Virus record (IMG/VR): IMGVR_UViG_3300022929_000185
Span: 1-24,951 of that record
Strand: one strand, 5' to 3'
Source: a virus
DNA length: 24,951 nucleotides
Shown here: one piece after another, positions 5,341-24,951 of the stretch
Layout of the letters: every line of letters begins with the position of its first letter
How positions within the stretch are numbered: the stretch's first letter is position 1
The notes under the pieces: model-generated
Database searches by the model: none
Seen by the model: the letters and a program-made list of their open reading frames with translations, nothing else
What the model was told of the DNA's origin: nothing
Program-made: the position numbers and the translations under genes

Positions 5341-6954
5341 ATGAGTGCAGCACACGCAGTAGAAGATACACACGAAGTAACACACCAGCCTTGTCCATAC
5401 GAATCATGCGGAAGCAGTGATGCCTTTGCTTGGAATCCTGGGAAGAGCACAGGTTATTGCTTTGGCTGTAGTTCATCGTACCCACGTCCAAACTTTCGGA
5501 CACAGATCTTTGATTGGGCAGAGGAAACATACCCTGTCCAAGCTATAGAGCAACCCAAAGATCAGAACCGTCCCATCAAGTCAGCTACCTTCAAAGGTAT
5601 TCGTGGACTAGACGAGGACGTAGCACGTCTGTACAAGATCCAGCTTCAGCTTGACGAAGATGGTGTGCCTGTTCGGTATGCCTTCAAGTACCCTAACAAC
5701 ACAAAGTACCGTGGCTATGACGAGAAGAAGTTCTGGACTGAGCAGAGAGGATCACCTAAGGATCTATTCGGCCCTGACTTCAATGCTGGTTCAAGCAAAC
5801 GTTTATACATAACAGAGGGTGAGTTCGATGCGGCATCTCTGTACCAAGCCTTAGGTAAAAGCTATCCAGTCAAGTCATTGCCCAGCGCATCTATCTCAGA
5901 GAAGTTCATCAAGAATGTCTTTGAGTATCTCAACTCATTCAGTGAGATCGTGTATGCTGGTGAGCAAGACGAAGCAGGAAAGGCAGCAGCCAACAGACTG
6001 TATGGTCTGTTCCCAGAGAAGTTCTACTATGTACCTTTGACTAAGCACAAGGATGCTAATGACTTCATCACGTCAGGTGATGTCGATGACTTGAAGTGGG
6101 CAGCATTGAAGCCCCAACGTTTCAGCCCAGACAACTTCTTTGTTGGTGACATCGAAGTAGAGAAAGCTATCACAACAGAGAACCCTTACGAGTATGTTCC
6201 AACAGGACACACAGGTTTGGATGATAAGATCCGAGGCTTAGTTAAAGGTGGTCTGACATTCATCAAGGCATTGCGTGGACAAGGTAAGACAGAACTTATT
6301 CGTTACTTTGAAGTTGGCCTACTGAAGTCTGAGACACGTATTGCTTTGCTTCACATGGAAGAGATGAAGTCCACAACCTACCGTGCTATGGCAACCTATG
6401 AGCTAGGTGCCAATGTTCGTACCAAAGAAGATGCCCAAGAGAATGGTATCTCTGAGGATCAGGTAATCGAAGCAGCCAAGAAAGCAGCACAAGACGAGAA
6501 GACAATCATCTTTGAGATGCAAGCACACGATGACCCAATGGCTCTGCTTGAGTATGTACGTCTAGCAGCTACAGTCTACGGCGCACAGTTCATCTTCATT
6601 GACCACGTCCAACGACTAGCCTACCTATCCAACGCAGGTGTCGAAGGTGCCACCAGTACACTGACAACACTGGGTGCACGTATGGCACAGCTAGCCAAAG
6701 AACTAGACATCGGTGTGATCTTTATCTCACAGGTCAATGATGACGGACGAACAAAGTATGCTGCATCTCTTGAGGAAGAAGCAATCATTTGTATCAAACT
6801 AGAACGTGACACTGAGGCCGAAGATGAGATGGAACGTAACACAACAAACTTTATTGTTGACAAGAACCGTCCATTCTCTAAGTTAGGTAATGCTGGTTCG
6901 GTATACTACGATCCAGACACCACAATCTTAGAAGAGGTTTCATTCAGAGTATGA
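5341..6954 (+). CDS. T7 gp4-like DNA primase-helicase, 537 aa
   Basis: The N-terminus carries a zinc-binding Cys4 module (C18, C23, C40, C43) as in T7 primase. A TOPRIM-like catalytic region follows, with YITEGEFDA (156-164), GEQDEAG (207-213) and KDAND (237-241). The C-terminal half is a RecA-like helicase: the Walker A region ALRGQGKT (310-317) has Ala where the first Gly usually stands, and FIFIDHVQ forms Walker B. T7 gp4 is 566 residues, so this is full length. It would unwind the fork with its hexameric helicase and prime the lagging strand. AAGGAGA lies before the ATG, and the stop overlaps the polymerase start (ATGA), which implies coupled expression. Confidence 0.93.
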   Translation: MSAAHAVEDTHEVTHQPCPYESCGSSDAFAWNPGKSTGYCFGCSSSYPRPNFRTQIFDWAEETYPVQAIEQPKDQNRPIKSATFKGIRGLDEDVARLYKIQLQLDEDGVPVRYAFKYPNNTKYRGYDEKKFWTEQRGSPKDLFGPDFNAGSSKRLYITEGEFDAASLYQALGKSYPVKSLPSASISEKFIKNVFEYLNSFSEIVYAGEQDEAGKAAANRLYGLFPEKFYYVPLTKHKDANDFITSGDVDDLKWAALKPQRFSPDNFFVGDIEVEKAITTENPYEYVPTGHTGLDDKIRGLVKGGLTFIKALRGQGKTELIRYFEVGLLKSETRIALLHMEEMKSTTYRAMATYELGANVRTKEDAQENGISEDQVIEAAKKAAQDEKTIIFEMQAHDDPMALLEYVRLAATVYGAQFIFIDHVQRLAYLSNAGVEGATSTLTTLGARMAQLAKELDIGVIFISQVNDDGRTKYAASLEEEAIICIKLERDTEAEDEMERNTTNFIVDKNRPFSKLGNAGSVYYDPDTTILEEVSFRV

Positions 6955-15770: not shown

Positions 15771-15804
15771 ACCCCCAGCTAATAACTGGGGGTCTTTTCT
15801 TTTT
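15771..15804 (+). terminator. Strong rho-independent terminator ending the plus-strand arm
   Basis: ACCCCCAG (15771-15778) pairs with CTGGGGGT (15786-15793) around a 7-base loop, followed by CTTTTCTTTTT. The stem is GC-rich and perfect, so it should stop rightward transcription efficiently. The T-tract reaches into the stop codon of the convergent minus-strand gene at 15803. Read leftward, the flank is GTTTAGTC, a weaker terminator end. Confidence 0.9.
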
Positions 15805-18800
15805 AACGTGTTGAGTAGATGTCAGTAGACTTCTCTAGAGGTACTTGGTTAAGAAGACGTAGACGTAGGTTGATCTCTTCTTTGACAGACTCAGCTGAAC
15901 CTATCATCTCTTTGTAGCCATCAAACCCAAGTTCTCTTGCAGCTTGGTTGAAGACATCCTTGCCTTTGTCCTTTACTTGAATAACAAAGTTGTTGCGGAT
16001 GTAGCCCCTTGCTTTGACTGGGTCTCTAGCCACGAAGGTATCAAACATGTCTTGAACTTCAGATGCTTCTGCAGCAATCTCTTGCCGAATAAACTGCTTT
16101 AGTATCTCTGCCTTCTCTTTGTTTAATTCCTTCATAGGAATACCTGTAGACTTTGGTGTTAACTCGTCAAAGGTAAGACGACCAAACTTATTGCTGACAG
16201 GGGCTTCACTCTTCCAAGCCTCAAACTTTTGAGGAAGTGTTTTAGCTAACCTCTGTTGAACAACAAGTTCTGTGTTTGCATTTGCTAATGCACCTAGAGA
16301 TCCTTTGTTGAACATCTGCCAGTTCTTAATACCGTATCGGCTTTGGTACTTCTGCAGTGCAGTCAGAGGAGGCTCTGAAGTACCACCAGAGATTTGTTTG
16401 TACAAAGGGCTAACAGTACTTCTAGCAACAGGGTTGTCGTAGTCATAGATCTTAATGTCTTGTTCCCCATCAAATGATTGGGTGTACTGTACGAAACCTA
16501 CGTCTGGTAAGAAACGTGTGGCTTGTGGTCCAAAGATACCCTGTGACAAAGCACCAGCACCTTTACGGCTAACATCTTCACCAAGAGCTAAGTCTCTTAC
16601 GTAAGGATTACCAGATGCTGCGGGGTTGAACTGGTTGTATGTATCTCTTGCAAGAGCCAGAGGCATCGTGAAGGTAGCTAAAAAGTTACCTAGCTCTTTC
16701 TCAAACTCTTCTGTCGGTGCGCCTTCTTTTAAGGAGTTATAGACTGATTCTGGAAAGCCGAGATCTAGTGAGAACTCAGGTATACCACCAAAAACAGCTG
16801 ATACTTCGTTTCTATCAAAGTTAACTGGAAGACCTTTGTTTAGTCTCCAAAGCAAATCACCTACATAAAGGTGGGCAAGAATAGAACCAGCATACTGTTT
16901 CATGTCAGCCTCTTCACCTAAGGCATTACGAATAGAGCCGTAGTCTACCTCACCATCCCTTTCGTATGCTAAGGCATACCCTCCTAGTAGAAGGGACATA
17001 CCTGTCATCTGACGTGCCATCCTTTGAGCAGGATCTTCGGACGACTTAATAAGCTTCCCTTTGTGCATAAGCTCACCTAGTACAGGTGTGTACTCAGCTA
17101 CCATCTGTAGGTGGTTTGCAGTATACCGTGGGAAGGGCATCCCCAAACCTTGTGATACAAGGAATGGAACCTTACGGTTGATTGATATAAACGTCTTTGC
17201 AGTCGTACCTAACGCAGAGTCGTCACCCTTAAAGTCGTACTGCATGGTCAGACGTTGAGCTTCGTTGATAGACTTCTCGAAGGAGATACCTTCGGGTAGT
17301 TCTTCCATAGACTTGTTTTCTTTTAACCAGTCTTTTAAGGATAACCCTTTATCTCTGAACTGCCTATCCAAGCTACCGTAGAACATACCTTCCTTTAGGA
17401 CACTATCTACGGCTGTGTTGAATACGTTAACAACACGACCAGCTTTAGCCATAACAGAAGAACCCTCAAGGGCCATCTCAACTCTTGCTGCGTTGGAGTA
17501 CAAACGTCTAGATGTCTCTGGCATCTCATCCATGATGATAGCCTTCAGCATCTTAGCCTCTGCGTTGTTTATTGTAAACCCTCTTAACATTGATGTTGTG
17601 TTAGGGATAATGTCTTTGACAGACCTTACATCACCTTGGAAAAGACCTTTGTAAAGACCTCTGTTTACCTCATCAACTACGTCTGTCGCCAGAAGGATAC
17701 CAGAGTTCCTAAGGTTTCGCATTGTAGTTGCTGGTTGAGAGGTCATGAATGCAATACGCATAGCGTCTAGGTCTTGGAAGAAACCATAAATCTTCTGGTC
17801 TTTAGTTGACCTACGGACAGCTTGACCTACAATCTCTTCTGCTTCTCCACTTGAGATAGAGGATGCACCTTTAGAGAAGATAACATCAAGGTCACTCGTC
17901 TCTTTTTCGTCTATCTTACCTAGTGCAACCTTGGCACCTCTCTTGATAGCACTTTGAAAACCTAGTACACGACCAGCACGAGAAGCTTCTGCCAAGTAGA
18001 TCAAAGAGAACTCGTCCTTACTCAGACCGTATTTCTTTCTGATTCCTTCAATCATCTTGAAGTTTTCTTCTGCACCTTCCCCACTTAAGGCACGAGCAAC
18101 AGACTCAGTGATACGTTCAGATCCTTCAATACCAAGCTTCTGGTTCTGCATTAGCTCAGATGCTGCAGCTGCAACACTACGCATAGTATCAACAGATAGG
18201 CCAGATGAGAACACTGGGTTTGCCTTGGTATCTGTCATGGCATTTAGGATAGCCTGACCTCTTTTAACTCTCTCAGGATCTAAGGGATCTTTAATACCTG
18301 TAGCCCCTTTGACACCTTCACGTGCAGCAAAGATATCATCTAAGTCAGATAGGATCTTACTAGCTTCTTTCTTAACAGACTCAGGTGCTTCATTAAGAGT
18401 GAACAAAGCTTTCTCTGCAGCCTCTTGTCGTTTCTCAGCTACAACTCTGCCACGTTCTTGCAAGAAGTCTTTGACTGTGTTCTGTCTCTTTGCTCCGATA
18501 GCACCTGAGATAACACCAAGACCTGCGCCAACGGTACCTTCAATAGCACCAGAGATAAGGACATCCCTCAGGGCATCCTTACCGCCGTATTCAAAGCCTT
18601 CAACAACTTCTTCTCTGATCTCACCTTCTGCGATAGCTTGTCCACCACCGATGACAGCACCACTGGTAAAGCCGAGGGCACCACTGCGTAGGGCTTGTGC
18701 ACCAACAGACTTTGTAGCAGCTGACTTAGCTATGTTCTTCATCAAGCCTTGCTTCAAGGCACCACGGAGAGCAGTCTGTGTGGCATAGTTAGCAGCTTTG

Positions 18801-19210
18801 GCACCAACCTTACCTAAACCAAAACTACCTAAGCCTACGTAGGTTGAGGGGGCTGTAAGGATAGCCTCACTGAAGTCACCAACACCCTCGAAGAAACCTG
18901 TACCAGCAGACTGTGAGTTATCCCAAGCTTTGATAAGACGACCAAAGGCATCCTTACCTCTTTGATCCATGTCCTTGTTGTTTACGTAGTTCAAGTCTTT
19001 GACGGCTGTCACTTCATTCCAAGCTTGGTGCCTCATGTGTTCAGCAAAACGTTTGGATAGACCTTCAAAGCCTTCCTTCTTCATGTCCTCTTTGGACATC
19101 TTGTAACGCCCACCTGAGTAGAATTGAATAAGGTCTTTCTTGAAGTCGTCATCTTCCATCAAGTCCATGAAGGACTCGACCTCGGCTGCTCTATTAGTAT
19201 AATCTGTCAT
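15803..19210 (-). CDS. Large virion protein, probable DNA-ejection/internal protein, 1135 aa
   Basis: At 1135 residues this is the largest gene and the last of the leftward structural run, like T7 gp16 (1318 residues). Residues about 120-240 are Gly/Ala-rich with hydrophobic segments (for example GALGFTSGAVIGGG near 177-190 and GAIEGTVGAGLGVISGAIGA near 221-240), as in ejection proteins that enter membranes. A further hydrophobic patch (MTGMSLLLGGYALAY) lies near 740. It lacks an N-terminal murein hydrolase; that activity seems to be on the 248-residue gene upstream. I infer a role in DNA translocation into the cell. The family is not identified directly. Confidence 0.6.
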   Translation of the reverse strand: MTDYTNRAAEVESFMDLMEDDDFKKDLIQFYSGGRYKMSKEDMKKEGFEGLSKRFAEHMRHQAWNEVTAVKDLNYVNNKDMDQRGKDAFGRLIKAWDNSQSAGTGFFEGVGDFSEAILTAPSTYVGLGSFGLGKVGAKAANYATQTALRGALKQGLMKNIAKSAATKSVGAQALRSGALGFTSGAVIGGGQAIAEGEIREEVVEGFEYGGKDALRDVLISGAIEGTVGAGLGVISGAIGAKRQNTVKDFLQERGRVVAEKRQEAAEKALFTLNEAPESVKKEASKILSDLDDIFAAREGVKGATGIKDPLDPERVKRGQAILNAMTDTKANPVFSSGLSVDTMRSVAAAASELMQNQKLGIEGSERITESVARALSGEGAEENFKMIEGIRKKYGLSKDEFSLIYLAEASRAGRVLGFQSAIKRGAKVALGKIDEKETSDLDVIFSKGASSISSGEAEEIVGQAVRRSTKDQKIYGFFQDLDAMRIAFMTSQPATTMRNLRNSGILLATDVVDEVNRGLYKGLFQGDVRSVKDIIPNTTSMLRGFTINNAEAKMLKAIIMDEMPETSRRLYSNAARVEMALEGSSVMAKAGRVVNVFNTAVDSVLKEGMFYGSLDRQFRDKGLSLKDWLKENKSMEELPEGISFEKSINEAQRLTMQYDFKGDDSALGTTAKTFISINRKVPFLVSQGLGMPFPRYTANHLQMVAEYTPVLGELMHKGKLIKSSEDPAQRMARQMTGMSLLLGGYALAYERDGEVDYGSIRNALGEEADMKQYAGSILAHLYVGDLLWRLNKGLPVNFDRNEVSAVFGGIPEFSLDLGFPESVYNSLKEGAPTEEFEKELGNFLATFTMPLALARDTYNQFNPAASGNPYVRDLALGEDVSRKGAGALSQGIFGPQATRFLPDVGFVQYTQSFDGEQDIKIYDYDNPVARSTVSPLYKQISGGTSEPPLTALQKYQSRYGIKNWQMFNKGSLGALANANTELVVQQRLAKTLPQKFEAWKSEAPVSNKFGRLTFDELTPKSTGIPMKELNKEKAEILKQFIRQEIAAEASEVQDMFDTFVARDPVKARGYIRNNFVIQVKDKGKDVFNQAARELGFDGYKEMIGSAESVKEEINLRLRLLNQVPLEKSTDIYSTR

Positions 19211-20204: not shown

Positions 20205-20795
20205 TTATACCCTCGCCATTAGACCTTTAGCTGAAGGAGCTTGCTCTTCTTGAGGTTGCTGCTCCATAGCCATAGGTTCTTGCTGTTGTTCTTGTGGTTG
20301 TTCTTGCTGCTCTTGGTCTGGCATCTCAGAGCCTTGTTGTTCATCAGCTAGAGCCATTGCTTGCTTCTTGTCTGCCTGAGTAATCTCCATGACATCCTTA
20401 GGCACACTACGTAGAGCCATCAACTCGGCATGGGCTTCACGGGCGGCACGTCCACCTTCATCTTCATAACCAGTTAAGAAAGGAACACCTACTTCTTTAG
20501 CTGTACCAGCAATCCATTCTTCGATTGGCTTCTTGATGATTAAGCTTACGTCTACACCGTGGATACCAGCTGCTACTGCACCACGCAGAATGTTATCAGC
20601 TACGATAGTTACAGGGGCATCGTTCTCTAACAACATCAAGATAGATTCCATGCGGTCTGCGTCTGCTAGTCTATCTAGGTGAACCATCAGAGCTTCCTCT
20701 GGATCAACGATCTCAGGAGGACTCTCGTAAGGAGCATTCTTAGGTTCTCTGGTTAAGGATTGCCCTGGGATGGGTGCACCAAATAAGTCTATCAT
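20205..20795 (-). CDS. Hypothetical virion-cluster protein with Gln-rich tail, 196 aa
   Basis: The first 115 residues are a folded-looking helical domain (EEALMVHLDRLADADRMESI, APVTIVADNILRGAVAAGIH). The last 50 residues are dominated by Gln, Glu, Pro and Met, a low-complexity acidic tail that is probably disordered. The domain recalls small conserved proteins of marine phage structural regions, but I cannot name it. It is coupled to the upstream hydrolase gene by an ATGA overlap (start at 20795) and ends two bases before the next gene. Confidence 0.6.
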   Translation of the reverse strand: MIDLFGAPIPGQSLTREPKNAPYESPPEIVDPEEALMVHLDRLADADRMESILMLLENDAPVTIVADNILRGAVAAGIHGVDVSLIIKKPIEEWIAGTAKEVGVPFLTGYEDEGGRAAREAHAELMALRSVPKDVMEITQADKKQAMALADEQQGSEMPDQEQQEQPQEQQQEPMAMEQQPQEEQAPSAKGLMARV

Positions 20796-21538
20796 GAGTC
20801 TCTTGCTCCTAGTCCTTGTGGTCTTACTTTAGGTTTCTTAGAGAAACTAAACTGTTTAGCAGCAGCCAACAGTGTGTCGTCGTCAACAGATTTAAACCCC
20901 TGCCATTCATTACGTAATTCACTTAACATCTGCGTATCTGTCTTAGCCTTATTTAAACGTCTTGAGACTAGGTAAGCAAACATCTGATCCTGCACCTCTG
21001 GTGTAAAGACTGTATCTTTGTCGAAACCAAGAGCCTCTGAAACATCCTTAAGGGTTGAACCGATAATCTGATAACGACCAAGAGGTGTTCCAACTACGCC
21101 TTTGTTGCGAGCTTTCACCCATTGACCATACTCACCGCTAGGATCTGTGAAAGCCTCTAGTTCTCCTATGGTCATCTTAGTGACATCAACATCTTTGAAT
21201 GGGGTATCTTTATCCTGAGCAAAACCAAAGAGAGTGTTGTAGTCTCCAGCACCTTCAGTCTGGTCAACCAAAGATTGCAGGTCACCTGCACCTCTGAACA
21301 CCATGTCGTTGCGGCTAAAGTCAGAGGAAGAAGACACATCCCTTTCAGCTACTTGCTTAAGAGCTTCCTCTACACTGCCCCGAATAGTGCTTGTATATGT
21401 ATCAAGAACATCAGGTGTAAAACCTAGATCGAGATCTTCTTGTGCTGCATCCCCTAACCGAGCAACTTGTGCTTGCGGGTCAGGTCTACCAAGAGCAAAG
21501 GCGGAAGCTCTTGTTCTCTTTTGTTTGTTATTTTCCAT
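20792..21538 (-). CDS. Virion-associated peptidoglycan hydrolase (transglycosylase-like), 248 aa
   Basis: The central domain has the lysozyme/transglycosylase pattern: E95 in TEGAGDYNTLFG, which begins the catalytic region, then MTIGELEAF and GRYQI (154-158), the conserved G-x-Y-Q-I of such enzymes, followed by a helix and PEVQDQMFAYLV. The N-terminal 70 residues are polar and low in structure, and the C-terminus is basic. In T7 the corresponding activity is the N-terminal domain of gp16; here it stands alone in the same cluster. It would open the murein during DNA ejection. The exact family is uncertain. Confidence 0.7.
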   Translation of the reverse strand: MENNKQKRTRASAFALGRPDPQAQVARLGDAAQEDLDLGFTPDVLDTYTSTIRGSVEEALKQVAERDVSSSSDFSRNDMVFRGAGDLQSLVDQTEGAGDYNTLFGFAQDKDTPFKDVDVTKMTIGELEAFTDPSGEYGQWVKARNKGVVGTPLGRYQIIGSTLKDVSEALGFDKDTVFTPEVQDQMFAYLVSRRLNKAKTDTQMLSELRNEWQGFKSVDDDTLLAAAKQFSFSKKPKVRPQGLGARDS

Positions 21539-21543
21539 CTACG

Positions 21544-23619
21544 TTAGTCCCATCCTACGGCTTTGTATGCGAGGTTAGTCCAGAACTCTGATGCTGCGGC
21601 ATCTTCTTCTGCAGATAGTTTAGCCTTAAACATATCCATGTTCTTGTCAGCCAACAAGATGTTCAAAGCCCTATCTTTTGCATTCTCAGCAGAGGTCTGA
21701 CCATAGTCCATCAGGTCTCTCTCACGTTGCCAAAGTTGATCCAAGGCATTGGTTGTGAGGCTATTGATCTGACGAGCATTCTCCATGTTTGCTTCGTTCT
21801 GGGCAGCAGTGTTAATCGTAACAACATTCTGCCTCCACTGAGCATTAGCTTGAGCTACAACAAGTCTGTTCTGTGCATTGAACTGATCACGTTGGTTCTC
21901 CACCTGAGCATTAAACTGCTTGGCAGCATTGACTTGCCCAGCATTAAACTGATTGGTAGCATTAATCTGTGTTGCGTTAAACTGACTTACTTGTGTAGCC
22001 ATGCTAGACATAAACTGTCTGGTCTGGTTCTCTGAAGAAGCATTGAACTGACGTGCAGCATTCTCTGCAGCTGTATCTGAAAGGATAGATTGCTGAATTG
22101 CCTGTGCCTTAAACATGTTAGTTTGTTGACGGTTAGACAGGTTAGCCATATCCACCTGTAAGAATGCCTGAGCATTTTGTACAGCAGCTTGCTGAGTATT
22201 CGACAAGTTCTGTTGTTCTAACTGTGAGATAGAGGCAGCTTGAGCCATCACCATAGCCTGATCATTGGACAGGTTCTGTAGGTTCATTGTGTTAGCTGTA
22301 CGGCTATTCTCTAGTGCCACTTGCTGTTCTGCAGTGAAGTTCATGTTTGCTGCATCAGCAACACGAGAAGCATTCTGTACTCTTGCTTGGAATGCTTGGT
22401 CAAACTCTTGACCCATAAACTCTGCACGTTGTTGTGCTGCAAGCATAGCACGTTGTTGACGGTTAGACAAGTTCTGCATTTCAAACTGTGTCTGTGTCTG
22501 TGCATCAGCCATAGCAATAGGGAGTGCTGATTCCATAGCAGCTTGTACTAGAGCCTGACCAGCCATAGACGAAGCACCTAGACCACGAGCAGCCATCTGT
22601 GCAGTAGCATTACGTAGAGCACCAGCAGCCCATGCAGGTGGTTGACTACCTTGGAACTGGTTCATCAAACCAGCAAGTTGATTTTGCACTTGTGTTTGTG
22701 CAGATGGTGTTGCAGTAGCAGCTTGGATTTGTTCTGTGTATGCAGCAGCTTTCTGTGCATCAGCTACACCAGAGATAATTTCACCTTGTTGGATCTGTCT
22801 CTGAGTGGGGTTGTTCATCATCAGAGCTTGACCCTGAGCAGCTTGTAGCTGATTTACACCACTGGTAGCAGGGTTCATGGTAGCTGCTTGTGCCTGTGCA
22901 CCTTGTGATACCTGACCTTGCTGTGCTTGTAACTGAGCACCTGCTTGCTGCATAGCACCAGTACTTGTTGCAGCCTGTGTCGTAGCTGTAGAGATAGGTG
23001 CAGCAGCTTGTGCTGTAGCAGCAGGACCAGTCGTTGTAGCACTCATAGTAGCTGCAGGACCAACTTGACCCGTACCAGAAGCAATAGTAGTTCCAGCAGC
23101 ATTGGGGTCAATCTTAGCAACATCAGCTTTTTGAACTAGAGACGAAGGATCAGAGAGAGCTTGCTGCGTCATCTGTCGTGATTGAGCAGAGATCTGTGTG
23201 TTACGTTCCGTCTGTGCTTTCTGCAGACTTTTTTGCAGTGAGCCTAAGGTACTATTTAAAGCATCGGTAACCTCTTTAGAACGGCTAGTGTCAATAAGAC
23301 CTGGGGCAGCTACACCCTGTGCTGCTTGAATCTGCTGTTGTGCTTTACCGATAGCATCGGTTCCATCCCCAGTTACGCCTTGTACAGCAGCTTTAATTGC
23401 AGCCTTATAATCGGCAATAGCCTTATCGTCAGCTTTCTTATCGTCAATAGCTTTCTCAGCAGCTTTCATATCAGCTTCTGAAGTGTATGTCTGATTAGCT
23501 AGCTCTGGGTAAGTAGACGTATACGTTGTGGCATCACCACCACCACCTCCACCACCAAATACGACACGGCTAGCTAAACCGACTTGAGGCATAAAGGGAT
23601 TATACAAACCAGATTTCAT
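21544..23619 (-). CDS. Gln/Ala-rich virion protein with 11/22-residue coiled-coil repeats, 691 aa
   Basis: The N-terminus has a Gly run (22-28), then Ala/Lys helices and a long Gln/Ala/Thr low-complexity region (about 180-300). From 383 a regular repeat begins: NLSN at 383, 449, 471 and 493, with related blocks at 405 and 427, a 22-residue period. Then Q-F-N/M/A at 524, 535, 546, 557, 568 and 579 repeats every 11 residues. A period of 11 is that of right-handed hendecad coiled coils, so a long fibrous rod is predicted. It holds the T7 gp14 position between the gp13-like gene and the hydrolase. Its start overlaps the upstream stop (ATGA). Confidence 0.75.
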   Translation of the reverse strand: MKSGLYNPFMPQVGLASRVVFGGGGGGGDATTYTSTYPELANQTYTSEADMKAAEKAIDDKKADDKAIADYKAAIKAAVQGVTGDGTDAIGKAQQQIQAAQGVAAPGLIDTSRSKEVTDALNSTLGSLQKSLQKAQTERNTQISAQSRQMTQQALSDPSSLVQKADVAKIDPNAAGTTIASGTGQVGPAATMSATTTGPAATAQAAAPISTATTQAATSTGAMQQAGAQLQAQQGQVSQGAQAQAATMNPATSGVNQLQAAQGQALMMNNPTQRQIQQGEIISGVADAQKAAAYTEQIQAATATPSAQTQVQNQLAGLMNQFQGSQPPAWAAGALRNATAQMAARGLGASSMAGQALVQAAMESALPIAMADAQTQTQFEMQNLSNRQQRAMLAAQQRAEFMGQEFDQAFQARVQNASRVADAANMNFTAEQQVALENSRTANTMNLQNLSNDQAMVMAQAASISQLEQQNLSNTQQAAVQNAQAFLQVDMANLSNRQQTNMFKAQAIQQSILSDTAAENAARQFNASSENQTRQFMSSMATQVSQFNATQINATNQFNAGQVNAAKQFNAQVENQRDQFNAQNRLVVAQANAQWRQNVVTINTAAQNEANMENARQINSLTTNALDQLWQRERDLMDYGQTSAENAKDRALNILLADKNMDMFKAKLSAEEDAAASEFWTNLAYKAVGWD
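21852..22473 (-). repeat. In-frame 33/66-bp periodic coding repeat
   Basis: This is the DNA for residues 383-590 of the 691-residue protein. It encodes the 22-residue NLSN-type units followed by six 11-residue QFN-type units. The repeats are protein-level and degenerate in DNA, so the period is imprecise at base level. It accounts for the unusually Gln/Asn/Ala-rich codon pattern here. Confidence 0.7.
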
Positions 23620-24038
23620 TTCTTAAACTCTTTCATGTGTCTTTTGGTGGGATCGTGAAGTCTTCGCCAATTTACTTTTTCGTCTTTACCGTAAACAGAA
23701 CTATGTTCTTTTCGTATTAGTCGCATCAACTCTCTTGCATTACCGTAGGGTGCGACAAACTCTATTCCCCATAGTTCAGCCTTAGTATCACTTACGTAGT
23801 CTTCTTCAGTTATTCTGTAGTCGTTCGTAAGGAACTTCTGTCCAGCTTCTTTGTCTAACCAACACCAAGTAATAAGTCCAACTGGTTCATCACCTGAGTA
23901 GTAGATACGCATACGGTTATACTTAATGGGGGCTACAATGTATCGGAAGATATCTTCCACATTATAGTTCCTGTGCCATCTGCTTTGTCGGAAGAGTTTT
24001 AAGCTATCTACTACAGCTTTGTTATGATCAATTAGCAT
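23616..24038 (-). CDS. HlyC/RTX-toxin acyltransferase-like protein in the gp13 position, 140 aa
   Basis: The pattern follows HlyC of E. coli: H22 in QSRWHRNYNV matches catalytic H23 in the SSPLHRNWPV segment; IVAPIKYNRMRIYY and EPVGLITWCWL match the next strand region; EEDY matches AEDW; and WGIEFVAPYG matches WFIDWIAPFG. HlyC D92 is E93 here, a conservative change. HlyC attaches fatty acids to toxin lysines, and its fold is related to GNAT acetyltransferases. The position matches T7 gp13, a 138-residue virion protein. It may modify a virion protein or be a structural relative; activity is not proved. A near-perfect sigma70-like promoter lies just before it. Confidence 0.7.
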   Translation of the reverse strand: MLIDHNKAVVDSLKLFRQSRWHRNYNVEDIFRYIVAPIKYNRMRIYYSGDEPVGLITWCWLDKEAGQKFLTNDYRITEEDYVSDTKAELWGIEFVAPYGNARELMRLIRKEHSSVYGKDEKVNWRRLHDPTKRHMKEFKK

Positions 24039-24091: not shown

Positions 24092-24301
24092 TTACTCGTT
24101 AGAGTCACTGTCTTGTATTACCAATTCACCAGCCTCAACCTGACGCAGTATCTCTGCATAGTGGCGGTTGGTTGGGTCAAGTGGGACTGACATCTCTTGT
24201 CCGTCTAAGCTAATCATAATAGAGATAATATCGCCAACATCTTGTCCTATTTTGGGTAGATCTCTGATGTATGTAGCTTGTACTATGTTCAAATGCTCCA
24301 T
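24092..24301 (-). CDS. Small protein next to the tail-fibre gene, 69 aa
   Basis: I choose the ATG at 24301 because GGAG lies 8 bases before it; the upstream ATG at 24316 overlaps the fibre gene and lacks a site. The segment SVPLDPTNRHYAEILRQVEA with GELVIQ resembles a short domain often found beside or at the end of phage tail genes, in which a helix precedes a final strand. A chaperone or tail-fibre assembly role is possible, but the likeness is from memory. Confidence 0.65.
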   Translation of the reverse strand: MEHLNIVQATYIRDLPKIGQDVGDIISIMISLDGQEMSVPLDPTNRHYAEILRQVEAGELVIQDSDSNE

Positions 24302-24302
24302 A

Positions 24303-24951
24303 TTATAACTCCGCATCTAAATGAAAGATTATGTCAGCTTCAAGACGATACGAACCCCCGTCCACAGGAGTGGCATTTCCAGCCTGTCTAATTTGTATAA
24401 AGTTTATGGTACCTGTGGAGGATGTGTTAGGTTGTTGGGCTGAGTATTGAAAACCAGAAGTTGAATTTGCAGAAAAAGCAACAACTCCAGGGTTGACCCA
24501 ATAAAAAGCCCCACTTGGGTGTGAGTAGGAAACAGAAGGGGCTGTTCGCATAGTTTGAAACTGCACCTCACCACCATAAAACTTATTAAAAGTAGAGTAA
24601 TAAGTACCTGTGTTAGCATTGCCATGTTTGTATACGTTTTGATAATAGCGTTTGCACTTCTGAAGCGTTACCGAAGATGGCTCATGCTCGAAGGGGGTGG
24701 CTGTGTCGCCAGTCTCTAATTGGACACCGCCAAAAGTTAGGGTGAATGTACCCGTAGCTGAAGTCTTTGCTCCATCAAACCTAATTGCCACCCCGTTAGC
24801 TGCATTAGCTGGTAGAGTAAACGTAAACGTAAAGCGTTGGGCTGATCCACTGTATGAAACAGCATTTGACGAGATGACGGTTTCACTTGTAAAATCATTC
24901 ACAGCACCAGCATAAGACAACGATGCGTTTAGTGTTGCTGAACCTGCATCA
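24303..24951 (-). CDS. Tail-fibre protein C-terminus (partial at the window edge)
   Basis: The frame is open to the right edge (DAGSATLNASLSYAGAV precedes the first Met-like codon), so the gene begins outside the window and the TTG at 24920 is not a true start. The C-terminal part holds FGGVQLETGDTATPFEHEPS followed by a KCKRYY segment, a motif I recognise from many phage tail fibres and carbohydrate-binding modules, where a jelly-roll domain meets a terminal trimeric domain. The remaining C-terminus is Tyr/Ser/Gly-rich beta structure ending IIFHLDAEL. It probably binds the host surface. It transcribes leftward into the small gene at 24301. Confidence 0.8.
   Translation of the reverse strand, partial: DAGSATLNASLSYAGAVNDFTSETVISSNAVSYSGSAQRFTFTFTLPANAANGVAIRFDGAKTSATGTFTLTFGGVQLETGDTATPFEHEPSSVTLQKCKRYYQNVYKHGNANTGTYYSTFNKFYGGEVQFQTMRTAPSVSYSHPSGAFYWVNPGVVAFSANSTSGFQYSAQQPNTSSTGTINFIQIRQAGNATPVDGGSYRLEADIIFHLDAEL

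Follow-up and report, generated by a model that had tools for sequence, protein, structure and literature searches.

A HlyC-family acyltransferase gene in the T7 gp13 slot of a viral contig and the leader peptide that tracks the slot enzyme

What does a member of the HlyC family of acyltransferases do in the morphogenesis operon of a phage? The question is raised by IMG/VR virus record IMGVR_UViG_3300022929_000185, of which positions 1 to 24,951 were analyzed (24,951 nucleotides, referred to as the window). From the letters alone, an earlier sequence-only reading had proposed a HlyC-type acyltransferase of 140 residues at 23616-24038, in the position of gp13 of phage T7, with the adjoining ejection proteins as possible substrates. 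Here, we describe the family and fold of this product, its relatives in other phages and the gene directly behind it. New are a leader peptide on that next gene, which tracks the enzyme in the slot, and the replacement of HlyC by a GNAT (GCN5-related N-acetyltransferase) in sister phages. The features needed for the argument are the following.

23616..24038, minus strand: HlyC-family acyltransferase, 140 aa (open reading frame, Pfam, predicted structure, Foldseek, VIA-align)
23973..23975, minus strand: codon for His22, presumed to be the catalytic His in the dyad of toxin-activating acyltransferases (TAATs); His in 65/66 relatives
23760..23762, minus strand: codon for Glu93, where the TAAT dyad has its catalytic Asp; Glu in 50/66 and Asp in 16/66 relatives
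21544..23619, minus strand: 691-aa protein in the T7 gp14 position, candidate substrate, directly downstream of the HlyC gene
23536..23619, minus strand: leader at the N-terminus of the 691-aa protein, with an NPFMP block, a hydrophobic stretch and poly-Gly

A 140-codon open reading frame fills positions 23616-24038 exactly on the minus strand, and frame 1 of the plus strand is broken by stop codons across the same interval; the coordinates and length read earlier were right, and the strand is to be given as minus. The product scored 68.9 bits against Pfam family PF02794 (HlyC; E = 4.9e-19, cut-off 25 bits). No other Pfam family was matched up to E = 10, the T7 gp13 family PF11090 included, and T7 gp13 itself matches only PF11090 up to E = 1. 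Among solved structures, a sequence search returned ApxC alone (4whn; E = 0.0025). An AlphaFold2 model of the product, computed from an input alignment of 63 sequences, reached a pLDDT of 93.2 and a pTM of 0.86. With this model, Foldseek ranked 4whn first (E = 5.4e-9, TMq 0.79), followed by the GNAT-like domain of CurA (E = 1.9e-4), and VIA-align superposed the model on 4whn_B with Z = 16.8 and an rmsd of 2.3 over 130 aligned residues, the next-best entry reaching Z = 9.8. Since ApxC was the best match by both Foldseek and VIA-align, the earlier by-eye alignment with HlyC was correct. The product is a member of Pfam HlyC with the ApxC fold and not of an unrelated fold, and the score and the superposition thereby uphold the HlyC-type identity that had been proposed.

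Viral contigs were scanned with an alignment of HlyC relatives and the best 80 of 192 were kept, which biases the set toward close relatives; the addition of CRP-235, HTVC112P and the window brought it to 83 proteins, 66 of them distinct and all with open frames. His22 was retained in all distinct phage relatives except HTVC112P, and residue 93 was acidic in 66/66, the window having Glu. Slot-family members of as little as about 35% identity still have this dyad. The sequence-only reading had called H22 a conserved catalytic residue and E93 a substitute for D92; both hold in this set, and the loss of the His in close relatives, which it had named as speaking against the assignment, was not seen.

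HlyC genes in phages are already on record in databases. CRP-235 gp30, HTVC112P gp46, HTVC104P gp36 and HTVC115P gp46 are annotated as HlyC-type, and BFVD contains one phage protein so named. CRP-235 gp30 shares the Pfam family and the slot with the window protein, at 35% identity and with a neighbor that starts MGGGG; the proteins of the three pelagiphages belong to the same Pfam family but lie outside the slot, are leaderless and lack the aligned His. Among the papers listed by literature searches that covered few subscription journals, none was seen, by title and start of abstract, to treat phage HlyC-type genes or acylated ejection proteins. Bacterial relatives of the slot HlyC were found at seven loci, with identities of at most 33%; two of these adjoin ABC-transporter-like genes and one an RTX-like repeat protein, as judged from N-termini read by eye.

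No RTX (repeats-in-toxin) array was found in the six frames of the window, which is a fragment; the scan returned a single poly-Gly hexamer and nothing more. Within the window, the earlier statement that no RTX toxin lies here is therefore accurate. Because the window has no such array, we assign the product to HlyC by sequence and fold but do not class it as a toxin-activating enzyme. It resembles HlyC and ApxC in a Pfam score above the cut-off, the fold, the catalytic His and the acidic partner. It differs from them in length (140 residues versus 170 in the 4whn chain), in having Glu instead of Asp, as most of its phage relatives do, and in the location of its gene in a morphogenesis operon without an RTX array in the window.

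The HlyC gene lies after the tail genes and directly upstream of the gene in the gp14 position, with an overlap of 4 nt between the start of that gene and the HlyC stop. This gene order confirms the T7 gp13 slot by position. The gene after HlyC encodes one of two protein types in 81/82 scored loci, namely cluster 0, the type of the 691-aa protein of the window (52 loci), or cluster 6, the type of CRP-235 gp29, which is mostly followed by a lysozyme gene (29 loci). The remaining locus is that of HTVC112P, with a tail-tip-type gene after HlyC; locus L079 was not scored, its next gene having been dropped by the gene caller.

In the sister phages CRP-3, CRP-212 and CRP-738, the slot is occupied by another protein of about 150 aa, which in CRP-738 carries the annotation putative acyltransferase. 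Compared with CRP-235, these three phages have lysozymes of 68-71% identity and slot-adjacent proteins of 25-29% identity, the latter over repetitive bodies. The slot protein fell into no Pfam family over the cut-off, and neither a sequence relation of its family to HlyC nor a sequence link to T7 gp13 was detectable. Its model (pLDDT 86.6, pTM 0.82) has a GNAT fold, and 10 of its 12 best structures were N-terminal acetyltransferases (NATs; Ard1, Naa50, NatC, NatE) with Z scores of 14.0-14.4, matches that tie with other GNATs. Judged by the model, the slot protein of the sister phages is a NAT-like GNAT.

The best 80 of 377 relatives of this GNAT were kept. In the 333 stretches that were fetched, which include repeated contigs and are not whole genomes, 92 carried HlyC, 150 the GNAT and none both. 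Among 16 isolates, the GNAT-slot family was present only in CRP-3, CRP-212 and CRP-738; CRP-4, outside the 16, has a slot protein, gp41, that is a GNAT by Pfam and for which hhalign found no relation to the GNAT-slot profile. A tree built from the lysozyme gene product just downstream has 90 rows (65 with the GNAT, 23 with HlyC and two with neither, both at contig edges); on it the slot enzyme switches at least eight times, and the starred branches force at least four switches for HlyC. Lysozyme and slot may recombine, and these switches are counted on a linked marker and not on phage genomes.

The two enzymes are followed by the same kind of leader. At the 80 GNAT loci, the slot gene is followed at a distance of -11 to +3 nt by a gene whose product opens with a leader of the type [LY]NPFMP..HLNPRASGLIVF[K/G]GGGG. 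In phages of the window type, the gene after HlyC opens with a hydrophobic, Gly-rich leader of the same kind (NPFMP..NPRxSGLIxF..GGGG). Among 62 distinct GNAT leaders, NP occurs within the first 20 residues in 55, and GG in 53 and GGG in 49 within the first 45; by a looser rule, the leader is present in 149/150 GNAT stretches, the other having a bare MGG start. A hidden Markov model (HMM) built from 57 distinct GNAT-linked leaders only matched the N-termini of HlyC-linked cluster-0 proteins in 42/52 cases at E < 0.01 and in 48/52 at E < 1, and with reverse training, from HlyC-linked to GNAT-linked leaders, 53/62 were found. The same leader stands before different protein bodies. The link to the adjoining gene that the sequence-only reading had suggested is thus borne out in the form of a leader that tracks the slot enzyme.

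The data show the family, the fold, the conservation of the dyad, the adjacency, the coupling of leader and enzyme in this slot and the exchange with a GNAT. From these we propose that the slot HlyC is an active acyltransferase dedicated to the downstream ejection-type protein by way of its leader or Gly-rich N-terminus, a reading to which we give an even chance. We infer enzyme activity, the nature of the neighbor as ejection protein and substrate, and a role at the membrane. The product would act as a protein acyltransferase in the manner of HlyC, ApxC and CdiC, its sole target would be the large ejection-type protein encoded directly downstream, and it would act on, or be guided by, the N-terminal leader or Gly-rich start of that protein. 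The acyl chain would by analogy come from host acyl-acyl carrier protein (acyl-ACP) and would help the downstream protein to insert into or hold the host envelope, probably as a membrane anchor.

Instead of an active enzyme, the slot could hold an inactive acyltransferase fold with a chaperone or scaffold role toward the ejection-protein N-terminus, which we regard as improbable. Pfam calls T7 gp13 a probable scaffold protein, the relatives in HTVC112P, HTVC104P and HTVC115P are without the aligned His, and the canonical coenzyme A (CoA) loop [QR]xxGx[GA] occurs in 0/45 GNAT-slot proteins and 1/66 phage HlyC proteins. However, this loop is not expected in HlyC-type enzymes, because they take acyl-ACP; since it is missing in both slot families, the acyl donor of the GNAT, too, may be something other than free acyl-CoA. 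A structural role does not predict the exchange with another acyltransferase fold, and it sits poorly with a dyad conserved across the slot family. The option of a fold used only structurally, raised earlier, has become less likely through this conservation, although the His-less pelagiphage subfamily speaks for it.

We further asked where the leader occurs relative to the enzyme. The conserved C-terminal domain of cluster 0 was used to find relatives, and the best 80 of at least 587 were kept; four of the 80 had HlyC, all of them leader-bearing, and 76 had no slot enzyme in the stretch. Eleven of the 76 genes start at a contig edge; in the 65 that were scored no leader was found at E < 0.01 or at E < 1, and three had GGG, GGS or GGD in the first 40 residues. 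A scan from every possible Met start, which replaced a stop-to-stop scan of open reading frames that was too insensitive (1/4 known positives), reached E < 0.01 at none of 75 loci without a slot enzyme (two reached E < 1) and at 49/78 HlyC loci, CRP-235-type loci with a non-adjacent cluster-0 gene included. In the same scan, the cluster-0 genes of GNAT loci, which are not slot-adjacent, had the leader in 0/48 cases. The leader therefore belongs to the slot-adjacent gene and not to cluster 0 as such. It was present in none of nine isolates in which whole-record searches found neither an over-cut-off HlyC nor a GNAT-slot gene, and a Gly triplet at the N-terminus was present in one of 10 isolates tested, HTVC104P being among the 10. 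Finally, a search with the leader alignment alone returned 70 contigs, in which the preceding gene was the GNAT in 60 and HlyC in nine, with a contig end in one (L292); four of the 60 GNAT calls (L297, L330, L331 and L332) came from contig-end fragments of 17, 77, 41 and 115 residues, respectively. With L055 left out, 69 loci remained; 30 of them were new relative to the loci fetched before and contributed 20 distinct leaders. In this search, every leader with a preceding gene on its contig followed a slot enzyme; because the alignment was drawn from slot-linked genes, it would miss leaders of other kinds.

These distributions bear on the view that the link is only physical, the slot gene and the 5' end of the next gene moving together while the enzyme acts elsewhere, on a host protein, a lipid or a virion protein. 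The genes are contiguous and in the window overlap, and the pelagiphage HlyC relatives lie elsewhere without an adjoining leader. Against this, the same leader follows two enzyme families without detectable sequence relation, it precedes different protein bodies, and at GNAT loci it is found on the adjacent gene and never on the non-adjacent cluster-0 gene. We consider a purely physical link the most doubtful of the readings weighed here.

The dedicated-acyltransferase reading raises the matter of the acceptor residue. The HlyC-linked leaders are free of Lys in 30/37 distinct cluster-0 cases and in 25/25 distinct cluster-6 cases; the leader of the window has Lys at residue 2. GNAT-linked leaders are without Lys in 16/62 cases and have Lys directly before Gly in 38/62. 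Because most HlyC-linked leaders lack Lys, the N-terminal amine is the simplest acceptor. In the CRP-235-type proteins residue 2 is Gly in 23/25 and Ser in 2/25, which makes the N-terminal amine of Gly an obvious candidate. We infer from these compositions that N-terminal acylation would be the simplest form of the proposed explanation, with at best an even chance within it.

In classic TAAT chemistry the acceptor would instead be a Lys inside the downstream protein or inside some other ejection protein, with the leader docking the enzyme or being otherwise used; we hold this to be rather unlikely. Characterized TAATs act on Lys, according to the passages of PMC8510554 drawn on here, and the 691-aa protein has Lys in its leader and soon after it. 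One Lys column of the neighbor is present in 21/36 HlyC-linked proteins versus 9/86 enzyme-less homologues, an enrichment that may reflect kinship; this Lys is not general, the window having Arg at the position. The best conserved Lys in the C-terminal part of the cluster-0 neighbor, that of the MFKAQ block, is equally common with the enzyme (33/36) and without it (77/86). Three further columns stand at 22/35 versus 39/85, 19/36 versus 15/85 and 22/36 versus 26/85, and the cluster-6 proteins have one Lys column at 11/18. The acyl-lysine on ejection proteins that the sequence-only reading had looked to is weakened by the mostly Lys-free leaders, and retains the one enriched column in its favor.

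A Lys of the neighbor was accordingly rejected as a general acceptor, no such candidate column being found in cluster 0 or cluster 6.

Several observations weigh against the proposed dedication of the enzyme to its neighbor. The known TAATs acylate Lys, yet most HlyC-linked leaders have none, and since enzyme gene and leader adjoin, they could be passed on as a unit even if neither acts on the other. The leader itself is not uniform: nine of the 62 distinct GNAT leaders have no GG and continue KGDG, KNDG, KGE or KGSS, and 10 of the 52 HlyC-linked cluster-0 N-termini were missed by the HMM at E < 0.01, the misses comprising four types with NPFMP or poly-Gly visible by eye and L047, which starts MGGSS. 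At loci L036 (HlyC at 6513-6950) and L038 (HlyC at 6290-6727), both among these misses, the next gene starts with the leader-like MIYNPFMPTTRFDSYIAR and has no poly-Gly, perhaps through a frame change, perhaps as a genuine variant; L040 has a near-identical start followed by GGGGG. In the CRP-235-type (cluster-6) sister group, HlyC goes with a bare MGGGG start, and the GNAT-trained HMM matched 0/29 of these N-termini at E < 0.01, 28/29 having GGG, GGS or GGD in the first 40 residues. Among the lysozyme-tree rows, HlyC has a bare start in 23/23 and the GNAT a leader in 65/65. The co-switch of enzyme and N-terminus was seen in four independent pairs on supported branches, all of which agree (p = 0.125); with only four such pairs significance is out of reach.

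The same holds for HlyC relatives outside the slot. Whole records of isolates were searched in three sets of 12, 7 and 5. The first set gave three HlyC matches at E <= 0.001, two of them over the cut-off (CRP-235 and HTVC112P) and the third, in CRP-13, a 15.8-bit piece with an internal stop; matches over the cut-off were found in one of the seven further isolates (HTVC104P) and in two of the last five (HTVC115P and HTVC103P). Four pelagiphages thus carry HlyC relatives over the cut-off outside the slot.

MN698242 9485-9868: HTVC103P HlyC relative, far from structural genes
L342:2831-3280: HTVC104P gp36, between small genes and the genes of a single-stranded-DNA-binding protein and a primase
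L348:2011-2460: HTVC115P gp46, directly after a cluster-0 gene
L008:11962-12348: HTVC112P gp46, within a tail operon of siphovirus type, before a tail-tip-type gene

HTVC104P gp36, in an early-type region far from structural genes, is closest to HTVC112P gp46 (38%). No leader was found on the cluster-0 proteins of HTVC103P, HTVC104P and HTVC115P, nor on the genes after HlyC in HTVC104P and HTVC115P; the start is MGGIVEAIV for the gene behind HlyC in HTVC112P and MGAISRVFK for its counterpart in HTVC115P. Outside the slot the HlyC family is not tied to the leader, and this is the strongest finding against a strict pairing. The relatives in HTVC104P, HTVC112P and HTVC115P have no His at the aligned place (HTVC103P was left out of the alignment), and the pelagiphage proteins would form a separate subfamily, perhaps inactive or otherwise used.

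The best precedent for a HlyC homologue with a non-RTX substrate is CdiC of class IV contact-dependent inhibition (CDI) systems. In the passages of PMC8510554 concerned, CdiC is encoded beside CdiA and acylates Lys1467 of CdiA with 3-hydroxydecanoate; the H37A and D107A variants act like a deletion in cells, while overproduced H37A retains activity, and the catalytic role of the TAAT His is described. These passages also give acyl-ACP as the donor of characterized TAATs and a proposal by the authors that the lipid of CdiA enters lipid A of the target. The phage enzyme resembles CdiC as a HlyC homologue with the gene of a non-RTX substrate, here a candidate, next door and a protein that would engage the outer membrane. 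It differs in that CdiA is acylated on Lys1467, whereas the phage leaders are mostly without Lys.

Other occupants of the slot are also instructive. The cobavirus slot GNATs (SIO1 pc40, as presented in a passage of PMC6775973, and CRP-4 gp41) and T7 gp13 hold the same position before a gp14-type gene, and CRP-4 gp41 shares an acyltransferase fold by Pfam; these proteins differ from the slot HlyC in having no detectable sequence relation to it. The same passage proposes the SIO1 GNAT as a possible counterpart of T7 gp13 (PMC6775973). T7 gp14 is described as the first protein ejected and as forming an outer-membrane pore in the section of PMC8954989 concerned. A passage on a T7-like virion proteome reports homologues of gp14, gp15 and gp16 and does not list gp13 (PMC4517105), which would fit an enzyme used during assembly.

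GNAT-type proteins were also seen in similar slots of other podovirus groups, at L105:6986-7435 (CRP-7) and L106:6980-7396 (Vibrio phage VA-RY-3); the next gene has the leader in CRP-7 and starts MGGSVGK in VA-RY-3. In CRP-4, a GNAT-type slot protein at L265:24821-25279 is followed by a gene with a long hydrophobic N-terminus. A phrog_32327 protein with a C-terminal hydrophobic stretch lies in or near the slot of CRP-13 (L086:7628-8101) and CRP-345 (L088:7870-8346), perhaps a different way of anchoring; Pfam found no acyltransferase among the genes in or near the slot of these two phages. The cluster-0 proteins without a slot enzyme (L186-L263) range in length from about 600 to more than 1,500 aa and are very variable in the N-terminal part, with a conserved Asn/Gln-rich C-terminal domain and a common alternative start M.MFKAFKP..M.KIA.

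The slot of the window lies between a tail-fibre-like gene and a series of ejection-type genes (691, 248, 196, 328 and 1135 aa), and the remaining features of this region are listed here.

24303..24950, minus strand: tail-fibre-like protein (tail nature suggested by position), C-terminal part, cut by the window end
24092..24316, minus strand: small protein, 74 aa, upstream of the slot
20792..21538, minus strand: lysozyme/transglycosylase-like cassette protein, 248 aa (phrog_14527, E = 2.5e-19; phrog_90 endolysin, E = 8e-10)
20205..20795, minus strand: conserved cassette protein (cluster 1), 196 aa
19216..20202, minus strand: cassette protein, 328 aa, without a family match
15803..19210, minus strand: large protein, 1135 aa, in the T7 gp16 position, with homologues in CRP-13, CRP-2 and HMO-2011

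By position and homology, the cassette proteins, the 691-aa neighbor included, are probably ejection proteins; the 1135-aa protein locally matches a 'putative internal virion D' over 10% of the query. The DNA polymerase is 74% identical to that of CRP-13, compared with 51.9% (CRP-5), 50.5% (ICBM2) and 48.3% (CRP-4) for cobaviruses, and the polymerase and the 691-aa and 1135-aa proteins are closest to those of CRP-13, CRP-2, CRP-9 and HMO-2011. By these gene relationships the source is a marine phage of HMO-2011 type. The cobavirus placement of the sequence-only reading was rejected on the same comparisons.

To our knowledge, it is incompletely understood how podovirus ejection proteins packed in the head become channels that span the envelope. 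If the proposed explanation is true, post-translational lipidation becomes a testable part of ejection-channel formation, the acyltransferases of the gp13 slot gain a function, and the reach of HlyC-type enzymes widens beyond toxins and CDI effectors to include DNA delivery by phages. The leader can be used as a marker to annotate enzyme-leader pairs in viromes. A broader possibility, unlikely in our judgement, is that N-terminal lipidation of the first ejection protein occurs in many marine podoviruses, with HlyC and the GNAT as interchangeable modifiers of a Gly-rich leader; if so, this would be a phage counterpart of N-myristoylation and would explain the acyltransferase fold in the gp13 slot of other podoviruses. 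Taken together, our results suggest that some phages chemically modify their injection proteins.

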